Source: Ignavibacteria bacterium (lineage in GTDB: Bacteria; Bacteroidota; Ignavibacteria; Kapaibacteriales; UBA2268). Taken from it: a stretch of 64,000 nucleotides of DNA. The position numbers and the translations under genes are program-made. The stretch spans positions 1 through 64,000 of the forward strand of contig JAAYTD010000029.1 in NCBI GenBank assembly GCA_012518115.1, given 5' to 3'. The notes below the pieces were generated by a model. The model was not told where the DNA came from. It ran no database searches and saw only the letters and a list, made by a program, of their open reading frames with translations. Positions 42,086 through 50,074 of the stretch are shown in pieces. The first letter of the stretch is position 1; the number at the start of each line of letters is the position of its first letter.

Positions 42086-43450
42086 TTATTTTGATTGAAT
42101 TACTATTTCAGTTCTACGATTCAAACTACGTCCGAAGTCCGTATCATTACTAGCTATAGGTCTTTTTTTTCCGAATCCTTTTACTTGTATTTTATCAGCA
42201 GAAATCCCACGTCCTATAAGATATGTTTTCACTGCATTAGCTCTTTTTAGTGATAAGTTATCATTAAAAGCATCTGAACCTACAGAATCTGTATGTCCTT
42301 CTACAAGAATTGCTATGTTTTTTTTGTTCAACATAAAATCAGCTAGTAAATTTAATTCGCTAACATTTTCAGGTAATTCATACTTTGCTGTTTGGAAAAG
42401 AAGGTTTTCGATAATTAACTTTCTCCCTAATTCCATTATTGGAATAGTTTTTTTAATTACTCTACTTAAATTTTTATCGAATAGTCCTATTTCTATGGAA
42501 TCAGGTATAGAAGTATGTTCTGATCTATATGTAACATAGAACAAGTTTGTAATTTGTTGAGTAAAGTTATCAAGAACTGTCGAAAAAGCATATTCTATAT
42601 TATAAGTTGTACCTCGTGTATTTTCAGACAATATAGCATAATTTTTCAATTTTGGAGGTGTAATAGAAAAGACTCTCAAATCGATTCTTTGTGCTCTTTC
42701 TATAACACTTTCTAAAGTTTCAAGCGTTCTACCGTCCCCGCCTTCATCACCTTTTTGATGATATGGAGCATCTGTTATAAGTATAGCTATACGGTTAGCT
42801 TCATCTCTAAATTGGATACGTTGAGTTACTGTTTTCAATGCTTCAAGCGCATTTTCCTTTTCGTCTCCACCGCCGAACGCTCTTACTTTTTTTATCCAGC
42901 TTAAGAAGTTATCTATATTTGAAGTAGGTTGATATACTCGTTCTATATTATCTGAAAAAAGTATTAATCCTAACCTATAATCTATTCCTCTTTCGCGTAA
43001 TTTCCCTGCAAAAGAAGTAACATTTTCAACAACTCCATCAATTTGCGGTTGCATAGAACCTGTAATATCAATTACGAAAATCAGATCCCAAGGTAAATTA
43101 TTAGCCATTGGAACTTTTTCAACTGTAAGTGCTTTAAACTCAATATTATTCTCATAAATTGTAATTTGTTCAGGCAACAATGTATCCAATGGTTCTCCTA
43201 ATTTATTATAAGCTTCTATCAGTAACTTAGTTTCTGGAAAACGTGTGATATCTACTCCTTTAACTGTAATATCTATTTCTTCTCTATCTGCTTCTATTTT
43301 AGCACGTTCTAACAGTTTTTGTTTCTTTTCTTTTTCTGCTTTCTTATCTTTCCATGTTCTTTCGGCAACTAATGAGTTGTTAGTTAAACTAAAAAATATA
43401 AATATATAACAGATTATTTTTTGTGGATTAAGTTTTATTTTTTTTAACAT
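42086..43450 (-). CDS. VWA-domain and OmpA-like peptidoglycan-binding protein
   Basis: The 454-residue exported protein has a signal peptide near residues 8-28. A von Willebrand A domain spans about 115-300 (FVIDITGSMQPQID as the metal-site motif, then AILITDAPYH). A C-terminal OmpA domain spans about 355-454 (LVEGHTDSVGSDAFN, LSLKRANAVKTYLIGRGI, GRSLNRRTEIVI). It probably anchors to peptidoglycan and binds a protein partner in the periplasm. It follows the two large outer-membrane-type genes and the GldM-like gene, so it may belong to that machine, in the place OmpA-like PorE holds in T9SS. Confidence 0.85.
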   Translation of the reverse strand: MLKKIKLNPQKIICYIFIFFSLTNNSLVAERTWKDKKAEKEKKQKLLERAKIEADREEIDITVKGVDITRFPETKLLIEAYNKLGEPLDTLLPEQITIYENNIEFKALTVEKVPMANNLPWDLIFVIDITGSMQPQIDGVVENVTSFAGKLRERGIDYRLGLILFSDNIERVYQPTSNIDNFLSWIKKVRAFGGGDEKENALEALKTVTQRIQFRDEANRIAILITDAPYHQKGDEGGDGRTLETLESVIERAQRIDLRVFSITPPKLKNYAILSENTRGTTYNIEYAFSTVLDNFTQQITNLFYVTYRSEHTSIPDSIEIGLFDKNLSRVIKKTIPIMELGRKLIIENLLFQTAKYELPENVSELNLLADFMLNKKNIAILVEGHTDSVGSDAFNDNLSLKRANAVKTYLIGRGISADKIQVKGFGKKRPIASNDTDFGRSLNRRTEIVIQSK

Positions 43451-43481
43451 GTTATCAAATTTTTTATTTTATATTAACAAA

Positions 43482-43527
43482 TTTCCCTACTAACCAATCC
43501 TATGGAAAACGATGATTAGTAGGGAAA
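43482..43527 (-). promoter_or_regulatory. Long hairpin between the 43573-45006 gene and the VWA-OmpA gene
   Basis: Perfect 12-bp stem TTTCCCTACTAA / TTAGTAGGGAAA with a 22-nt loop in a 122-nt gap. No strong U-tract follows, so it may be partial termination, a processing site or a leader structure. Confidence 0.5.
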
Positions 43528-43572
43528 AGTTAGTTTTGTTTAAAAAGATTAAATATTTAAATATAGTATTAA

Positions 43573-45006
43573 TTATATAGTTAATCTCAAAACCGGAGAA
43601 ATCATAAAGAAATTCTTTATTTCATAAGGTCTTGCTTCACGGATTGGCGTAGTGTATTTCATTTCTACGTATAACCAATCTCCTAAAAGTGGTATCCAAA
43701 CTCTACCTAAAAGATTATTATTAGATAGTTGAACACTAGCTCCAAAAGGAAAAGTAGCTTGATTACGGTATTCTATTTTAGCATATAACCAATCTAAAGG
43801 TTCGCTAGGTTTATATGTTTTTAATCCTTCAATATTTTCATTTGAAATATGAGCTACTTGATTAGGAGTATCTTTATCTGTATAATACAATCCCATTTCA
43901 GCTACTTCAGAATAACTAACACCTAAATCAAAGCGTAGATAATTTTCAGGATTTCGTGAATCTAACCACCAATTATAAAATAGCCCAAAATGACCTGATG
44001 CTTTAGAAACAGGAACTATAGATGTTATTTCATGTCCATATGCTGAAATATAATCAACTTCTGGATCTAAAGCATATGAACCCCATTTATGCTGCTCAAT
44101 ACCTGTTGTTCTTATATCTTCCACAGGTAAACGTACATCTACACTAAAACCTGCCTGCGGGTAAATAGGTAAATGGAAATCTAAACCTGCTATCAAACTA
44201 CCGCTTATTGCACCATTTAAAGTACGTTCTTTAACCCAAGTAAAGAAAGAATTAGAAGGATCTACTCCGCTTGTAACTCTATATCCACCACCTAGATAAG
44301 CATTCATTAAATATGGAATTGCACGTGAAGTATTAATATCTTTATTCAAATAAAGTGGACGTTGTAACTCTATACTACCTTCTCCCGATGACCAGAATTG
44401 ATAACCTATTTTATCGTTACCAAGTCTTGACGTTAGCCAAAAACCAGTATTGCCAATTTTGACGTTCTGCTCAAAAAGTGACAAAGAAAAGGCTTGATAA
44501 ACATCTGTCGGACGCAAATAATCTAATATAGCATCAGCTTGATATGTTGAAACAGGAACTTCTACAGGAATTTCTTTATAGCAATATGTTCTACCTGTTC
44601 CTGTACCGGAATAGCTAATTTCACCTGTAAGTTTCTTTTTCAAGGCTGAGGAAATATATTGTTCGATTTGATGAGTCTTCATAAAAGCATCCCCGCAAGA
44701 AATAAGCAGTATTTGAAAATGTCCATATTGAACATCAAATGCACCGGGAGCAGCAAGTACTTCTATGTTACTAAGATTCAACAAATTTCTATCAAAACCT
44801 GCACCTAAAAAAGCAGATTGAATATGTATTTGCAAGTCAGGTTCGCATATTTTCCAGCGCGGAAAATACTTTACTATATCTTGATCTAAGGTTGTAAGAG
44901 CGTCTAACATACCTTGTTCTTTTTCTGTATATTCTTGTGCAATTAAATTTGTTCCACATAAATAAAAAGTAATTGCAATCATTAAAATTAAATTTATTTT
45001 TTTCAT
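43573..45006 (-). CDS. Large outer-membrane-type protein of unknown function
   Basis: The 477-residue protein has a signal peptide (LILMIAITFYLCGTNLIA). Residues about 25-180 are globular with several cysteines. From about 180 to the end the sequence alternates aromatic and polar residues in strand-length runs, closing in a hydrophobic strand FFMISPVLRLTI, typical of an outer-membrane barrel. No family is recognised. It shares size, layout and neighbourhood with the 45042-46877 gene, and both may be partners of the GldM-like protein. Confidence 0.6.
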   Translation of the reverse strand: MKKINLILMIAITFYLCGTNLIAQEYTEKEQGMLDALTTLDQDIVKYFPRWKICEPDLQIHIQSAFLGAGFDRNLLNLSNIEVLAAPGAFDVQYGHFQILLISCGDAFMKTHQIEQYISSALKKKLTGEISYSGTGTGRTYCYKEIPVEVPVSTYQADAILDYLRPTDVYQAFSLSLFEQNVKIGNTGFWLTSRLGNDKIGYQFWSSGEGSIELQRPLYLNKDINTSRAIPYLMNAYLGGGYRVTSGVDPSNSFFTWVKERTLNGAISGSLIAGLDFHLPIYPQAGFSVDVRLPVEDIRTTGIEQHKWGSYALDPEVDYISAYGHEITSIVPVSKASGHFGLFYNWWLDSRNPENYLRFDLGVSYSEVAEMGLYYTDKDTPNQVAHISNENIEGLKTYKPSEPLDWLYAKIEYRNQATFPFGASVQLSNNNLLGRVWIPLLGDWLYVEMKYTTPIREARPYEIKNFFMISPVLRLTI

Positions 45007-45041
45007 TTCGTCTTTATATTTAATTTAGTTAAAAAAATGAA

Positions 45042-46877
45042 TTAAAAGTTGAATATTAAACGTACCATCGGCATAAACAAACCGTCTTTCTCCCAACTGC
45101 GTACCTGATCTTTAAATGCAGCTACGTATCCTTTTGCATCTAATCTTATATAAAACAATTCTCTCACTACAGGTATTTGTAACCATATGTTACCGGATAA
45201 AGCTTCATCAAAATACTGTACAGTAATTCCATAAGGTGTTGTTACATCAGAAGCCATAAATTCTGCTTTCATTGAAATTCCACCTATTGTTTCACTTGAT
45301 TCCTTTATATAATTCCAAACTGTTTCACCTTCAGAAGTCTCTTCTTGTTTATTGCGCCAAGCTTCAACACCAAAAACAGTTCCACCAATACCGAAACGCA
45401 TTAGATAGCCTGCATCAATAGAAATACCGAAAGTATAATGCATTTGTCCTGTAAATCTTACTAAATAATCATTATACAATACATCATTTTTAATGTAATT
45501 AAAAGTACCTTCATCCATTAATTTTTGGCGATTTTTATAAGTCGCTTCTTTTGCATCATCAAAAATATAAGAGCCGCCGAAACTAAATACTCCACTTTGT
45601 GGGATTATTTTTATTGGGAAATCGGCATTCAACGATAATCCAAAACCACCGCAAGTCATTGTTCTATCGATGTTAAACACATCTTTTGAAAAAGATGACC
45701 AACCTGAAGTAGGTAACACTAAACCAAATTTCATATTCTCCCAAATAGCTCTTACCGCAAGTCTTTCACTCCAAAAGCTTGGATAATTAATTTCATCTAT
45801 TCCATATCTAATCTCTGCACCATAACTCGGCAGATTAGCATTCGCATTACTATAAGGTGCTAATTTTATTGAGCCGTCTTCAGCGGTATATTCATAATAT
45901 TCAGTAGTATATTTTTTCCAACTAATTAAATCTGGGCTAATAAGTAGTTCATTTTCTTTCCAATAATCAGCCGGCTGCCCGTCACTTATTCTAATAAATT
46001 TTGCAACATCCATATCAGTTACATCATTTTCATTAGCTATCATAGAAGAAGTTTTTCCATAATTTTTCACAAAAACGAGTTCTGAACCTATACCTCTAAC
46101 CTCTGGAGTAATTAGATTGAAGTTCCCTTGTCTGAATTCAACAATAAGTTTGTCGTATAAGTTTGTTGTTTTTGTTGCATCATCTTCGTCTTCTATCATA
46201 AAGTTCATTAATTCATGATAAGTAAGTATGTTTTTTTCATTTGATACTGCATTTCCAATAACTTGGTTATAGTAAGCAATCAAATACTCTTCATACTCAT
46301 CTTTAGCAATTCTCTCTTTACAAAGAATAAGAGCTATGATGTCAGGTGGCGTTCCAGGCTCCTCTACGGGCTTAGTAATCATAAACATTTGATAGATGTC
46401 CGCCTTTTGCCTTCTTGTACCCCCTATTGCTTGTTGATACGCAAGTTGTAGTTCAACATCATTAACTTCAAGATCTTCAAGATATTCGAATTGATCAATA
46501 TCTCCGTTAAAAGCTCTTCTTATAGCAGGTAATGACCTAGTTCCAGTAGCCATAACTTTTCTAACTTCGTTAACAATATTTTCTAATCTTTCCGGATCTA
46601 CTACATTTTGGCTTGAAGCTATGTTTTCTTCCTCCGCAGCTGCTTCTTCTTCAAACTCTGTTTTCTTTTTTATAATTTCTTTTAATGAACGTACTTGTCT
46701 GTCATTCATTTCATAAAAAGAAACACTAGAAAATCTAAAGTTGTTAAAATTACTTAATATCTCTTTCAATTTGTTTTGTGAAGATATTCCGTCTTGCGCT
46801 TTTATATCACTATTTAGAGTAACTAATAAACCTAGTGCTAAAGCGAAGAAAATAAAATTACTTTTTCTTTTAAACAT
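45042..46877 (-). CDS. Large outer-membrane-type protein with helical N-terminal domain
   Basis: The 611-residue exported protein has a signal peptide (FIFFALALGLLVTLNSDIKA). A charged, mostly helical region (about 30-300) with a Glu-rich stretch EEEAAAEEEN follows. The C-terminal half is beta-barrel-like (aromatic, glycine-rich strands) and ends in MVRLIFNF, a classic terminal strand with final Phe. It starts 33 nt after the GldM-like gene. Function unknown; a secretion or surface-machine component is inferred from context only. Confidence 0.6.
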   Translation of the reverse strand: MFKRKSNFIFFALALGLLVTLNSDIKAQDGISSQNKLKEILSNFNNFRFSSVSFYEMNDRQVRSLKEIIKKKTEFEEEAAAEEENIASSQNVVDPERLENIVNEVRKVMATGTRSLPAIRRAFNGDIDQFEYLEDLEVNDVELQLAYQQAIGGTRRQKADIYQMFMITKPVEEPGTPPDIIALILCKERIAKDEYEEYLIAYYNQVIGNAVSNEKNILTYHELMNFMIEDEDDATKTTNLYDKLIVEFRQGNFNLITPEVRGIGSELVFVKNYGKTSSMIANENDVTDMDVAKFIRISDGQPADYWKENELLISPDLISWKKYTTEYYEYTAEDGSIKLAPYSNANANLPSYGAEIRYGIDEINYPSFWSERLAVRAIWENMKFGLVLPTSGWSSFSKDVFNIDRTMTCGGFGLSLNADFPIKIIPQSGVFSFGGSYIFDDAKEATYKNRQKLMDEGTFNYIKNDVLYNDYLVRFTGQMHYTFGISIDAGYLMRFGIGGTVFGVEAWRNKQEETSEGETVWNYIKESSETIGGISMKAEFMASDVTTPYGITVQYFDEALSGNIWLQIPVVRELFYIRLDAKGYVAAFKDQVRSWEKDGLFMPMVRLIFNF

Positions 46878-46910
46878 TATATATATTCCTATTATTATTT
46901 TTAAAATTTA

Positions 46911-49226
46911 TTATCTTCTCGGAGGTTGCCTTTTTGGTGTTTGTTGTTGCTGTCTACCTGGTGGTATTCTTAACCCTGTTGACGGCGTATAATCAACACT
47001 AAACATAATTTCCGTATCCATTTTCGAAGTTTTTGAATTAGTTGGGTGCTTAGCAGTAACAGATATCGGAATTGTTACCATACCTTGCGCTGATTTTACA
47101 TTCACGCCTGAATTTTTGGTTATTTCCATTTCTATCATATAGCCCGTTTCAGCATCACCACCTACTATTTCAGGTTGACTTGTAACAGAATATCCATTTA
47201 TATCTATATTTGCATCTCTTAAAGAAGGCTCGGATAATGTAGATTTTGCGTTTTTATCATCTAAACCTGTACTTGGTCCAAGAATAGAAACTCCTGAAAT
47301 TTCGATTTTAATTTTATTACCTGATTGCGTATATTTTGGCGCCAAATCAAAAGCTAGTATAGCTGGATCTTCTAATTTAATATCAGCTTCCGAAGAATAA
47401 AGCGGTATTTCTTGATAAGTATAAGGTTGTACCCATACAAGATTTACTTTTATTTTATTATTTTTAGCCAAACATTCTATATTGTCATCTCTAGTAATTT
47501 GATAGCCATTTATAGATTTAGGAGTTTCACCATCAAATGAAACATAAGTTTTAAATTGACTAGCAGAAATATCATTTTGAGAGTTTGGCAACATCTCAAC
47601 CGCAACTTTACTACCGTAATTAGCTCTTCTTGCTAATCTATCTGTAGTTCTCCTTTCATCAACAATTCCTGCTTCATAAACATATAAAGTGTCGTAAACA
47701 ACTTCTGACTTACCTGATATCTCATGCGTATACTCCATTATATACTTTCCTGCAGGCAATTCCTGATTTACCGTTCCTATTAAAGTATACTTTTTATCTC
47801 GTTCAGGATTTAGTTGATGAGGTGGTAGAGCAAATGTGACAGATGCACTATTTCCTAAAATTCTACCAGTAATTCTATTATTTCCTTTATAAGGTCCGGC
47901 TTCTATTTCGAAAGTATGTTTAGCATTTGTAAAACATCTATCGTCAGTAAGTGTAGAAATATAAGGTCTTGCAGTACTAGGTTTTGCAGTTTGAACACGT
48001 ATATTTATATCAAAATTACCTCTGTTTTGATCAAAATTCACCGATTGACCAGGACTTACTAATTTTGCTATATAGCTATAAAGTCTTAATTTTCCTATCA
48101 AATCAGCTGCATCAGGTTCGTTTTGAACTAATTTCATTGCTTCTTCAATACTAGCGTCAAATTTACGCGATGCCTCTAAAGTGTTTACTTTTGATTGAGC
48201 AACAAGTGCATCTATATCTTCAAGAGCATCTAATTGTGTATGTCGTCTTTTTAGTTCTCTGGCAACTTTTTTAAGATCGCGAACTGATAATTGTACTGTT
48301 CCTATATTAACCATAGCATCGTCAGATACTTCAGAAGCTTTACCTTCTAAAGATGCAACACCTAATATTCTATTTGTTTGAGAAGCAAAACGTAATTTAT
48401 AAATACCTGCCTTACTTCTATCGCTAGGTTCAAAATTCACAATAAATGCACGTTTTTGAGCTCCAGTTGTAAACTGTTTAGCAGCTTCCCTAGTTCTAAA
48501 ATCAGAATAGTAGAACGCTGAATCTTCACTCATTCCACGAGGAACAGAACCATTTCCTACTCTTCTAACAGGCTTATAAATAGGTTCAAAATCAAGAGTA
48601 CTTTGCAGAGAAGCTACATCAAGTTTATTATAAGCAGCATCCTTATCAAATTGAAGTTTATAAGCACCGACAAACTGCCAAGGCTCACCATTAGGACCAG
48701 GGAAACTCTGACCACTTTCAAAAGTCATAAAATCTATATCATTATTCCTTATGTATTCATCTGTCTGGAAAGTTGGCATAGAATCCGTAGTTTGAGAAGG
48801 AATATAAAATATTTGATATTCTAAATCTTCTACATTTGCAAGAGAAAGTAGTGTCGCAATTCTTTCGTCATATTCTTTTGAAGTCTCTCCCTCTCTTTTC
48901 TTTACATCTAAAGTTACATCTGTCACGCCAACTTCTATCAAGTATTCACGCGATGTCTTTAGTTCCGATCCAAAAATTTCTTTAATTGTTGCCATATCTG
49001 CTTCTGCAGGCAACGTAATTTCATCTTGTGGCTTTGTGTTTATACTTTCCGAGCCTGAACCGGAATACAATTGCGAAAGAATACTTTCAACGATTTTCAT
49101 CGTTTCATTATTCTGTTTCTGCAAATGCTCCTCTGCTTCATCTCGTTCAACGATAATGATCAGCAGCTCAAGCAATACAGCGAGATACAACACGAAATAG
49201 ACTTTAGCTACTCCACCTTTAGACAT
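46911..49226 (-). CDS. Inner-membrane anchored periplasmic protein, GldM/PorM-like candidate
   Basis: The 771-residue protein has one N-terminal transmembrane helix (VYFVLYLAVLLELLIIIV) carrying a buried glutamate and preceded by a short cytosolic tail. A helical region and several beta-sandwich-like segments follow, ending in a Pro/Gln/Arg-rich tail (RIPPGRQQQQTPKRQPPRR). This layout resembles GldM/PorM, the periplasm-spanning rod of the T9SS motor. The canonical GldM N-terminal sequence is not conserved and no GldL partner is adjacent in the window. A GGAGG ribosome site precedes the ATG. It heads the reverse-strand run that continues with two outer-membrane-type proteins and a VWA-OmpA protein. 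Confidence 0.45.
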   Translation of the reverse strand: MSKGGVAKVYFVLYLAVLLELLIIIVERDEAEEHLQKQNNETMKIVESILSQLYSGSGSESINTKPQDEITLPAEADMATIKEIFGSELKTSREYLIEVGVTDVTLDVKKREGETSKEYDERIATLLSLANVEDLEYQIFYIPSQTTDSMPTFQTDEYIRNNDIDFMTFESGQSFPGPNGEPWQFVGAYKLQFDKDAAYNKLDVASLQSTLDFEPIYKPVRRVGNGSVPRGMSEDSAFYYSDFRTREAAKQFTTGAQKRAFIVNFEPSDRSKAGIYKLRFASQTNRILGVASLEGKASEVSDDAMVNIGTVQLSVRDLKKVARELKRRHTQLDALEDIDALVAQSKVNTLEASRKFDASIEEAMKLVQNEPDAADLIGKLRLYSYIAKLVSPGQSVNFDQNRGNFDINIRVQTAKPSTARPYISTLTDDRCFTNAKHTFEIEAGPYKGNNRITGRILGNSASVTFALPPHQLNPERDKKYTLIGTVNQELPAGKYIMEYTHEISGKSEVVYDTLYVYEAGIVDERRTTDRLARRANYGSKVAVEMLPNSQNDISASQFKTYVSFDGETPKSINGYQITRDDNIECLAKNNKIKVNLVWVQPYTYQEIPLYSSEADIKLEDPAILAFDLAPKYTQSGNKIKIEISGVSILGPSTGLDDKNAKSTLSEPSLRDANIDINGYSVTSQPEIVGGDAETGYMIEMEITKNSGVNVKSAQGMVTIPISVTAKHPTNSKTSKMDTEIMFSVDYTPSTGLRIPPGRQQQQTPKRQPPRR

Positions 49227-49747
49227 ATAGTTAAACCCTCCAACGACATTAAGTCGATAAAAATATTAAAATTTGTTTCTAAATCAATAATAAAATATAG
49301 TGAATTCAAAGTTGTTTATACTTAAAATATACTAAAAGTATAAACAATATTATGCACAAAAAACAATTTTTCTCTTTTTCATATTTTACGAAAAAGATAA
49401 ATATATTAGTTTTTTTTTAATTTACAAAGAAAAAAAAATTAAAAACCTCAAAGTATTTAAAAAAAACGACAAATATGAAACTTCATAGTGTTTTTGTAGT
49501 ATTTTTTTAATGCAAAATGTAATATTTTAAACAATAATTTAGTAAATTATATTTTGTCAATATAGAATTTTACTTGGCTAAAACACAGAGTATTGCAAAA
49601 TATTACGATAAAAAAACATCTTTTTCTTTTTCATTCATTTTCTTTTCTTTTAATTGATTAATATAACTATCTTTTGCTAATAAATTTATATATTTGCTAA
49701 AATTTTTTGTTTTTTTTCAATATTTAACTTTTTATCTTTGTTTAATT
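49227..49747. other. Long AT-rich divergent intergenic region
   Basis: About 520 bp of A/T tracts separates the divergent GldM-like and PAS genes. I see a promoter at the right end, but no coding, RNA or repeat signature elsewhere. The A/T tracts may be bent DNA. Confidence 0.4.
49706..49740 (+). promoter_or_regulatory. Candidate promoter of the PAS-murF-rlmN operon
   Basis: TATCTTTG at 49733-49740 is a full match to TAnnTTTG; TTTG at 49706-49709 is a possible -33 box with a 23-nt spacer. The ATG follows only 7 nt after the box, so the transcript would be leaderless or nearly so. Confidence 0.5.
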
Positions 49748-50074
49748 ATGCTCGAAACCTACTTGAAATCCATTGATGTTGCTATCACAATTTGCGATAT
49801 TAACCTTAATATTGTATATATGAACGAAAAATCTAAAGCAACTTTTCCTAATGCAAATATAGGCGATTCATTAATAGATTGCCATAAAGAAAGTTCAATT
49901 TTGTTAATGAAAAAATTAATAACTGAAGCTAAATCAAACTCTTACTCTATAGAAAAGAATGGAGTAAAAAAAATTATTCATCAAACACCTTGGATAGAAA
50001 ACGACAAAATATCTGGCTTGATTGAATTTTCTATCGTCGTTCCTTTAGAAATGTCACATTTTAAAAGAGATTAA
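49748..50074 (+). CDS. Small PAS-domain protein
   Basis: The 108-residue protein from ATG 49748 (the upstream TTG frame in the ORF track is rejected) is essentially one PAS domain: ETYLKSIDVAITICDINLNIVYMNEKSKATF, then IGDSLIDCHKESS, then KKIIHQTPWIENDKISGLIEFSI. No output domain is attached. It sits 2 nt before murF, so it is translationally linked to cell-wall synthesis. A sensory or protein-binding role is inferred; ligand unknown. Confidence 0.75.
   Translation: MLETYLKSIDVAITICDINLNIVYMNEKSKATFPNANIGDSLIDCHKESSILLMKKLITEAKSNSYSIEKNGVKKIIHQTPWIENDKISGLIEFSIVVPLEMSHFKRD

Follow-up and report, generated by a model that had tools for sequence, protein, structure and literature searches.

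A conserved four-gene envelope cluster of the Kapaibacteriales as a probable part of a divergent T9SS energising module

A systematic survey with the standard T9SS profiles placed the T9SS in the Bacteroidetes in the narrow sense only (PMC4793230). Later papers took BLAST hits as a sign that the system may occur in the Chlorobi and Ignavibacteriae (PMC5837995, PMC11285876). Two described components are of particular interest for comparison. In F. johnsoniae, the motor requires residue Glu49 of GldL (PMC8986121). PorE (PG1058) contains a peptidoglycan-binding OmpA module (PMC7192894), which it has in common with the VWA-OmpA protein described below. No account of the module reported here was found in literature searches on the T9SS of Kapabacteria or Ignavibacteria that included GldM.

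The window, which is the whole stretch of 64,000 nucleotides that was analysed, belongs to an uncultured member of the Bacteroidota, order Kapaibacteriales. It contains a cluster of four genes, named M, B611, B477 and VWA-OmpA (Table 1). These genes probably make up the trans-envelope portion of a divergent energising module for the T9SS, in a genome in which canonical GldL, GldM and GldN were not detected by profile. The genes are separated by 33, 35 and 122 nt in the order M, B611, B477, VWA-OmpA, and their coordinates and close spacing are as first read from the letters of the DNA. Scans for promoters and terminators gave no excess compared with shuffles. No matches above cut-off were found for M, B611 and B477 in the Pfam or NCBIfam scans. 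A 126-aa ORF is located upstream of the cluster (window 49694-50074, plus strand), and its homologue has the same place in a termite-gut relative (L021:4584-4940).

Table 1. Genes, domains and transmembrane segment of the cluster, in positions of the window.
Feature	Position	Strand	Description
M	46911..49226	-	771-aa inner-membrane protein; proposed GldM-like motor shaft
B611	45042..46877	-	611-aa exported protein; proposed outer-membrane barrel
B477	43573..45006	-	477-aa exported protein; N-terminal alpha/beta domain and C-terminal beta-barrel (AF2 model)
VWA-OmpA protein	42086..43450	-	454-aa exported protein; proposed cell-wall anchor
TM helix of M, residues 9-27	49146..49202	-	Hydropathy 2.53; Glu20 codon at 49167-49169
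OmpA-C domain, residues 351-445 of VWA-OmpA protein	42116..42400	-	Pfam
VWA domain, residues 122-274 of VWA-OmpA protein	42629..43087	-	Pfam

The cluster is conserved well beyond the window. M is present in 57 of 60 related genomes (41 of 43 genera). The order M-B611-B477-VWA/OmpA recurs in ten families, as seen in 19 larger neighbourhoods with changing flanking genes. The complete ordered set was found in 62 of 80 named contigs, most of which are labelled Candidatus Kapaibacterium, Ignavibacteria or similar. Among the 18 incomplete contigs, nine stop within M or B611 or immediately behind one of them, four carry second M copies adjoining a GldL-like gene, four are without a VWA-OmpA gene next door, and one (L211) is without a called B477. 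The sequence-only reading had named separation of the genes in relatives as evidence against its proposal. Apart from the extra M copies and L211, M, B611 and B477 remain adjacent in every contig that does not end there; the VWA-OmpA gene is not found next to them in four loci. The four-gene unit is therefore real, and its VWA-OmpA gene can separate. Unrelated envelope genes might still be adjacent by chance or through general co-expression, since nearby genes can remain neighbours for long where genomes rearrange slowly, and since the VWA-OmpA gene is missing from the neighbourhood in those four loci. However, the four genes keep their order across sequences of 30-40% identity while the flanks differ in nearly every genome, and the sister families have retained a comparable arrangement. 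Such an explanation is very improbable; the four genes are not together by chance. The cluster was also found on L196 and L233, contigs labelled Desulfobulbaceae and Bradyrhizobiaceae; these MAG labels, or the binning, are therefore probably wrong.

M has a single N-terminal TM helix (N-in); beyond it lies a large periplasmic region of several domains. The single hydrophobic segment, residues 9-27 (VYFVLYLAVLLELLIIIVE), includes Glu20. This residue is invariant in 26 aligned relatives (alignment A1); in 101 distinct relatives matched by motif, the position is E in 100 and N in 1. The earlier description of an inner-membrane protein with a single TM helix and a buried Glu is thus borne out. The AF2 model of M (mean pLDDT 82, pTM 0.48) has a helix at residues 5-55, an alpha/beta part, a helical part, and then beta domains at residues 402-746.

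The relationship between M and GldM was searched at the sequence and structure levels. The Pfam and NCBIfam scans gave no match of M to the GldM profiles TIGR03517 and PF12080, and the Pfam models of MotB/ExbD/TolR gave no match either. In hhalign, M 590-722 aligned weakly to GldM 294-405 (E 0.0056, probability 6.5%), a profile score reached by 0 of 100 column shuffles. The C-terminal part of the sister-family M aligns weakly to the same GldM region (294-405, E 0.0077). Searches of the PDB with M by phmmer and by profile identified nothing, and no relative of M was found among viral contigs. GldM structures are present in the PDB. In the Foldseek search of M, the best 50 of 1757 matches were Ig-repeat proteins, and no GldM was among these 50. 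Matches of this kind are expected for beta domains like those of M, and they neither confirm nor rule out GldM. The label "GldM-like" is hence supported by the layout of M and by the analogy of its partner, and not by homology in sequence or fold. With moderate confidence, M works like GldM. Homology of M to GldM is likely at most, and in sequence or fold it is not established.

Some relatives have unusual forms of these proteins. In family f12 (L123, L125, L126), M is divided between two genes: one encodes a TM protein of 200 aa, and the other an exported protein of 360 aa that matches the C-terminal part of M from family f46 (hhalign 95%). Family f31 (L168-L170), another family of the Bacteroidota, has another divergent GldL/GldM pair, of which the GldM (380 aa) is without the helical D1 and is still found by the canonical profiles. 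The f31 GldM and GldL are clearly related to the canonical proteins (hhalign 97% and 96%, respectively), but bridging to the class through them failed, and M scored no higher against a GldM profile that included f31.

A candidate motor partner was identified from the sister families f46, f12 and f13, where the gene directly before M encodes a two-TM hairpin protein (GldL-like). The GldL-like profile (A2) and the M profile match an identical set of 46 of 100 class genomes, and none has only one of the two; kinship among the class genomes inflates this agreement. About 30 of the 46 genomes are from families that did not feed profile A2, and for these the co-occurrence involves no circularity. 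In four Kapaibacteriales loci, full-length M immediately follows the GldL-like gene; in L151, L158 and L164, the gene that immediately follows it encodes a PorU-like C25 sortase. The TM2 Glu of the family was found in 39 of 40 sequences, and the profile alignment places it on GldL Glu49. The similarity to the GldL profile is weak, with 2 of 150 shuffles as good, and no Pfam match to the MotAB/ExbBD/TolQR families was found. The window's genome encodes two GldL-like proteins, one of 445 aa on contig C83 (with the TM2 Glu) and one of 268 aa on contig C8; neither gene is linked to the cluster. The four-gene cluster is thus not the whole machine, since the gene for the motor partner lies elsewhere in this genome.

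The separate location of the GldL-like genes in this genome might favour a passive tether, which would join the inner membrane, the peptidoglycan and the outer membrane in a Tol-Pal-like or OmpA-like manner and without a motor. The long periplasmic region of M would fit such a role, and OmpA domains and barrels are common in tethers. However, the near-invariant TM Glu of M and the two-TM partner with its TM2 Glu are marks of a proton motor and not of a tether, which makes a purely passive structure improbable. Additional copies were also observed. In f46 (L119:3551-9877 and similar loci), the genes are arranged in tandem as GldL-like, second M-like, GldL-like, M, two barrels and VWA-OmpA; the second M-like protein has about 500 aa and no TM Glu. 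The additional GldL-like and M-like genes point to genomes with more than one motor. A 1181-aa T9SS cargo protein with LamG and PNGase F C-terminal domains adjoins a GldL-like gene (L149:8125-11670, on C8 of the window's own genome).

The AF2 model of B477 (mean pLDDT 84, pTM 0.64) shows a barrel-like C-terminal part behind an alpha/beta domain at the N-terminus. The best Foldseek matches of this model are weak and are the outer-membrane barrels FapF, FadL and AlgE (E 7e-4 to 5e-3). B611 consists of an N-terminal periplasmic region and a C-terminal region in common with B477 (hhalign 98%, E 1e-13, about 140 columns). Both proteins are related to the two proteins encoded after M in the sister families. 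Comparison of B611 and B477 with GldN gave no credible match, and the NCBIfam scan, which includes the curated PorP/SprF model, assigned them to no family. The earlier description of two unrecognised outer-membrane-type proteins agrees with the empty profile scans and with the B477 barrel model, and extends to B611 through the common C-terminal region. The best reading is that B611 and B477 are paralogous outer-membrane barrels. They may stand in place of the GldK/N ring. In the VWA-OmpA protein, Pfam identified the VWA domain (1.7e-13) and the OmpA domain (1.6e-20), which confirms the predicted peptidoglycan-binding domain. Its match to the PorE model in NCBIfam is limited to the OmpA domain.

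Several T9SS components outside the motor are present in the window's genome. SprA (E 9e-288 to about 1e-288), a full PorU (E 3e-204), a second PorU-like protein and PorV (E 2.5e-88) were identified. There are 109 Por_Secre_tail (CTD) matches, 99 of them over the cut-off, and three lie within the window. SprA was found in 99 of 100 class genomes, and the exceptional genome is 68% complete. The canonical motor profiles behaved differently. GldM (TIGR03517) has no match in the window's genome and none among those listed for the class, versus 48 of 198 phylum genomes over cut-off. GldL (TIGR03513) likewise was not found in the window's genome and has no class match above the cut-off, which 48 of 198 phylum genomes exceed. 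GldN (PF19841) is absent from the matches in the window's genome and from those listed for the order or the class, versus 28 of 118 phylum genomes. The sequence-only reading had suggested a search for porL/gldL, sprA and sprE, and had regarded a complete canonical gldKLMN locus elsewhere, together with no structural similarity of M to GldM, as evidence against it. SprA was found, and canonical GldL, GldM and GldN were not detected by profile. Its option of a divergent T9SS or gliding-type machine is well supported by context: SprA, PorU, PorV and about 99 CTDs, these missing canonical profile matches, the co-occurrence of M with the GldL-like protein, and the linkages of the GldL-like genes to M and to PorU-like sortases.

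In 54 of the 100 class genomes, all but one of them with SprA, neither M nor a GldL-like protein was found at the search sensitivity used. Either further-diverged versions exist, or SprA is energised otherwise in these genomes. This distribution also bears on whether the module serves the T9SS at all. M and the GldL-like protein might form a trans-envelope motor of the 5:2 type for another process, such as adhesin movement, envelope integrity or transport via the barrels. Their joint absence from these 54 genomes would be consistent with such a role, and so would the acidic TM residue of M (as in MotB/ExbD-type motors), the resemblance of the barrels to channel proteins, and the several GldL-like paralogues and second M-like proteins. 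However, GldL-like genes adjoin PorU-like sortases, the window's genome encodes about 99 T9SS cargo domains, no GldLM besides this module was detected in it, and by analogy with the studied T9SS an energy source is required for SprA. A motor for a different process is therefore unlikely, and the assignment of the four genes to a T9SS energising module is preferred.

A mechanism for this T9SS module may be proposed as follows. M would span the periplasm from its one inner-membrane helix, and would form a proton-driven motor of the GldLM kind with the GldL-like protein encoded on C83. By analogy, a pentamer of the GldL-like protein probably surrounds an M dimer. Proton flow through the helices of both proteins, via the TM2 Glu and perhaps Glu20, might change or turn M. 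The far end of M might then act on B611 and B477 at the outer membrane, where they would occupy the place of the GldK/N ring and PorP of standard systems. The VWA-OmpA protein may tie the assembly to the peptidoglycan, as PorE does. The energy would be passed to the SprA translocon, possibly through contact with M; SprA would export the CTD-tagged cargo, and PorU and PorV would process it.

The Kapaibacteriales and sister lineages might have a T9SS whose motor and outer-membrane module is unrecognisable as GldKLMN. It would consist of M with a proton-active TM Glu, an extended GldL-like ring, and two barrels and a VWA-OmpA protein in place of the GldK/N lipoprotein ring; for this full picture, the arguments are about evenly balanced. 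The absence of the standard motor genes could explain why the T9SS is missed in the Kapaibacteriales. A candidate replacement module makes the energising of SprA-bearing systems directly testable, and profiles built from it could find the system in uncultured lineages. The module is also a natural experiment on which motor and ring parts are essential.

Among the closest known systems, the module resembles GldLM. M has a single N-terminal TM and a large periplasmic region, and its partner is a two-TM hairpin protein that has an invariant Glu in TM2 as well as a cytoplasmic tail. The L-before-M gene order is present in relatives, and the genes are found with SprA, PorU, PorV and CTD cargo. However, GldM has about 510 aa and no acidic TM residue, whereas M has about 770 aa and one such residue (Glu20). 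Unlike GldL, the GldL-like proteins of this order have an extended N-terminus, which contains two more TM segments, and they are mostly encoded elsewhere. The curated GldM and GldL models were not matched, and GldN was not detected. M also resembles the single-TM partners MotB and ExbD of the MotAB/ExbBD/TolQR motors in its acidic TM residue, with a possible 5:2 type. For the GldK/GldN (PorK/PorN) ring and PorP/SprF, the likeness is in position: the genes after M sit where gldN follows gldM, and encode outer-membrane-side proteins. B611 and B477 differ in being of the beta-barrel type; they match neither the GldN nor the PorP profile and show no evidence of a ring. The VWA-OmpA protein is comparable to PorE, since it is exported, has a C-terminal OmpA peptidoglycan-binding domain and adjoins T9SS-type components. 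PorE is a lipoprotein with TPR, propeller and CRD; the VWA-OmpA protein has VWA instead, and no obvious lipoprotein cysteine at its N-terminus.
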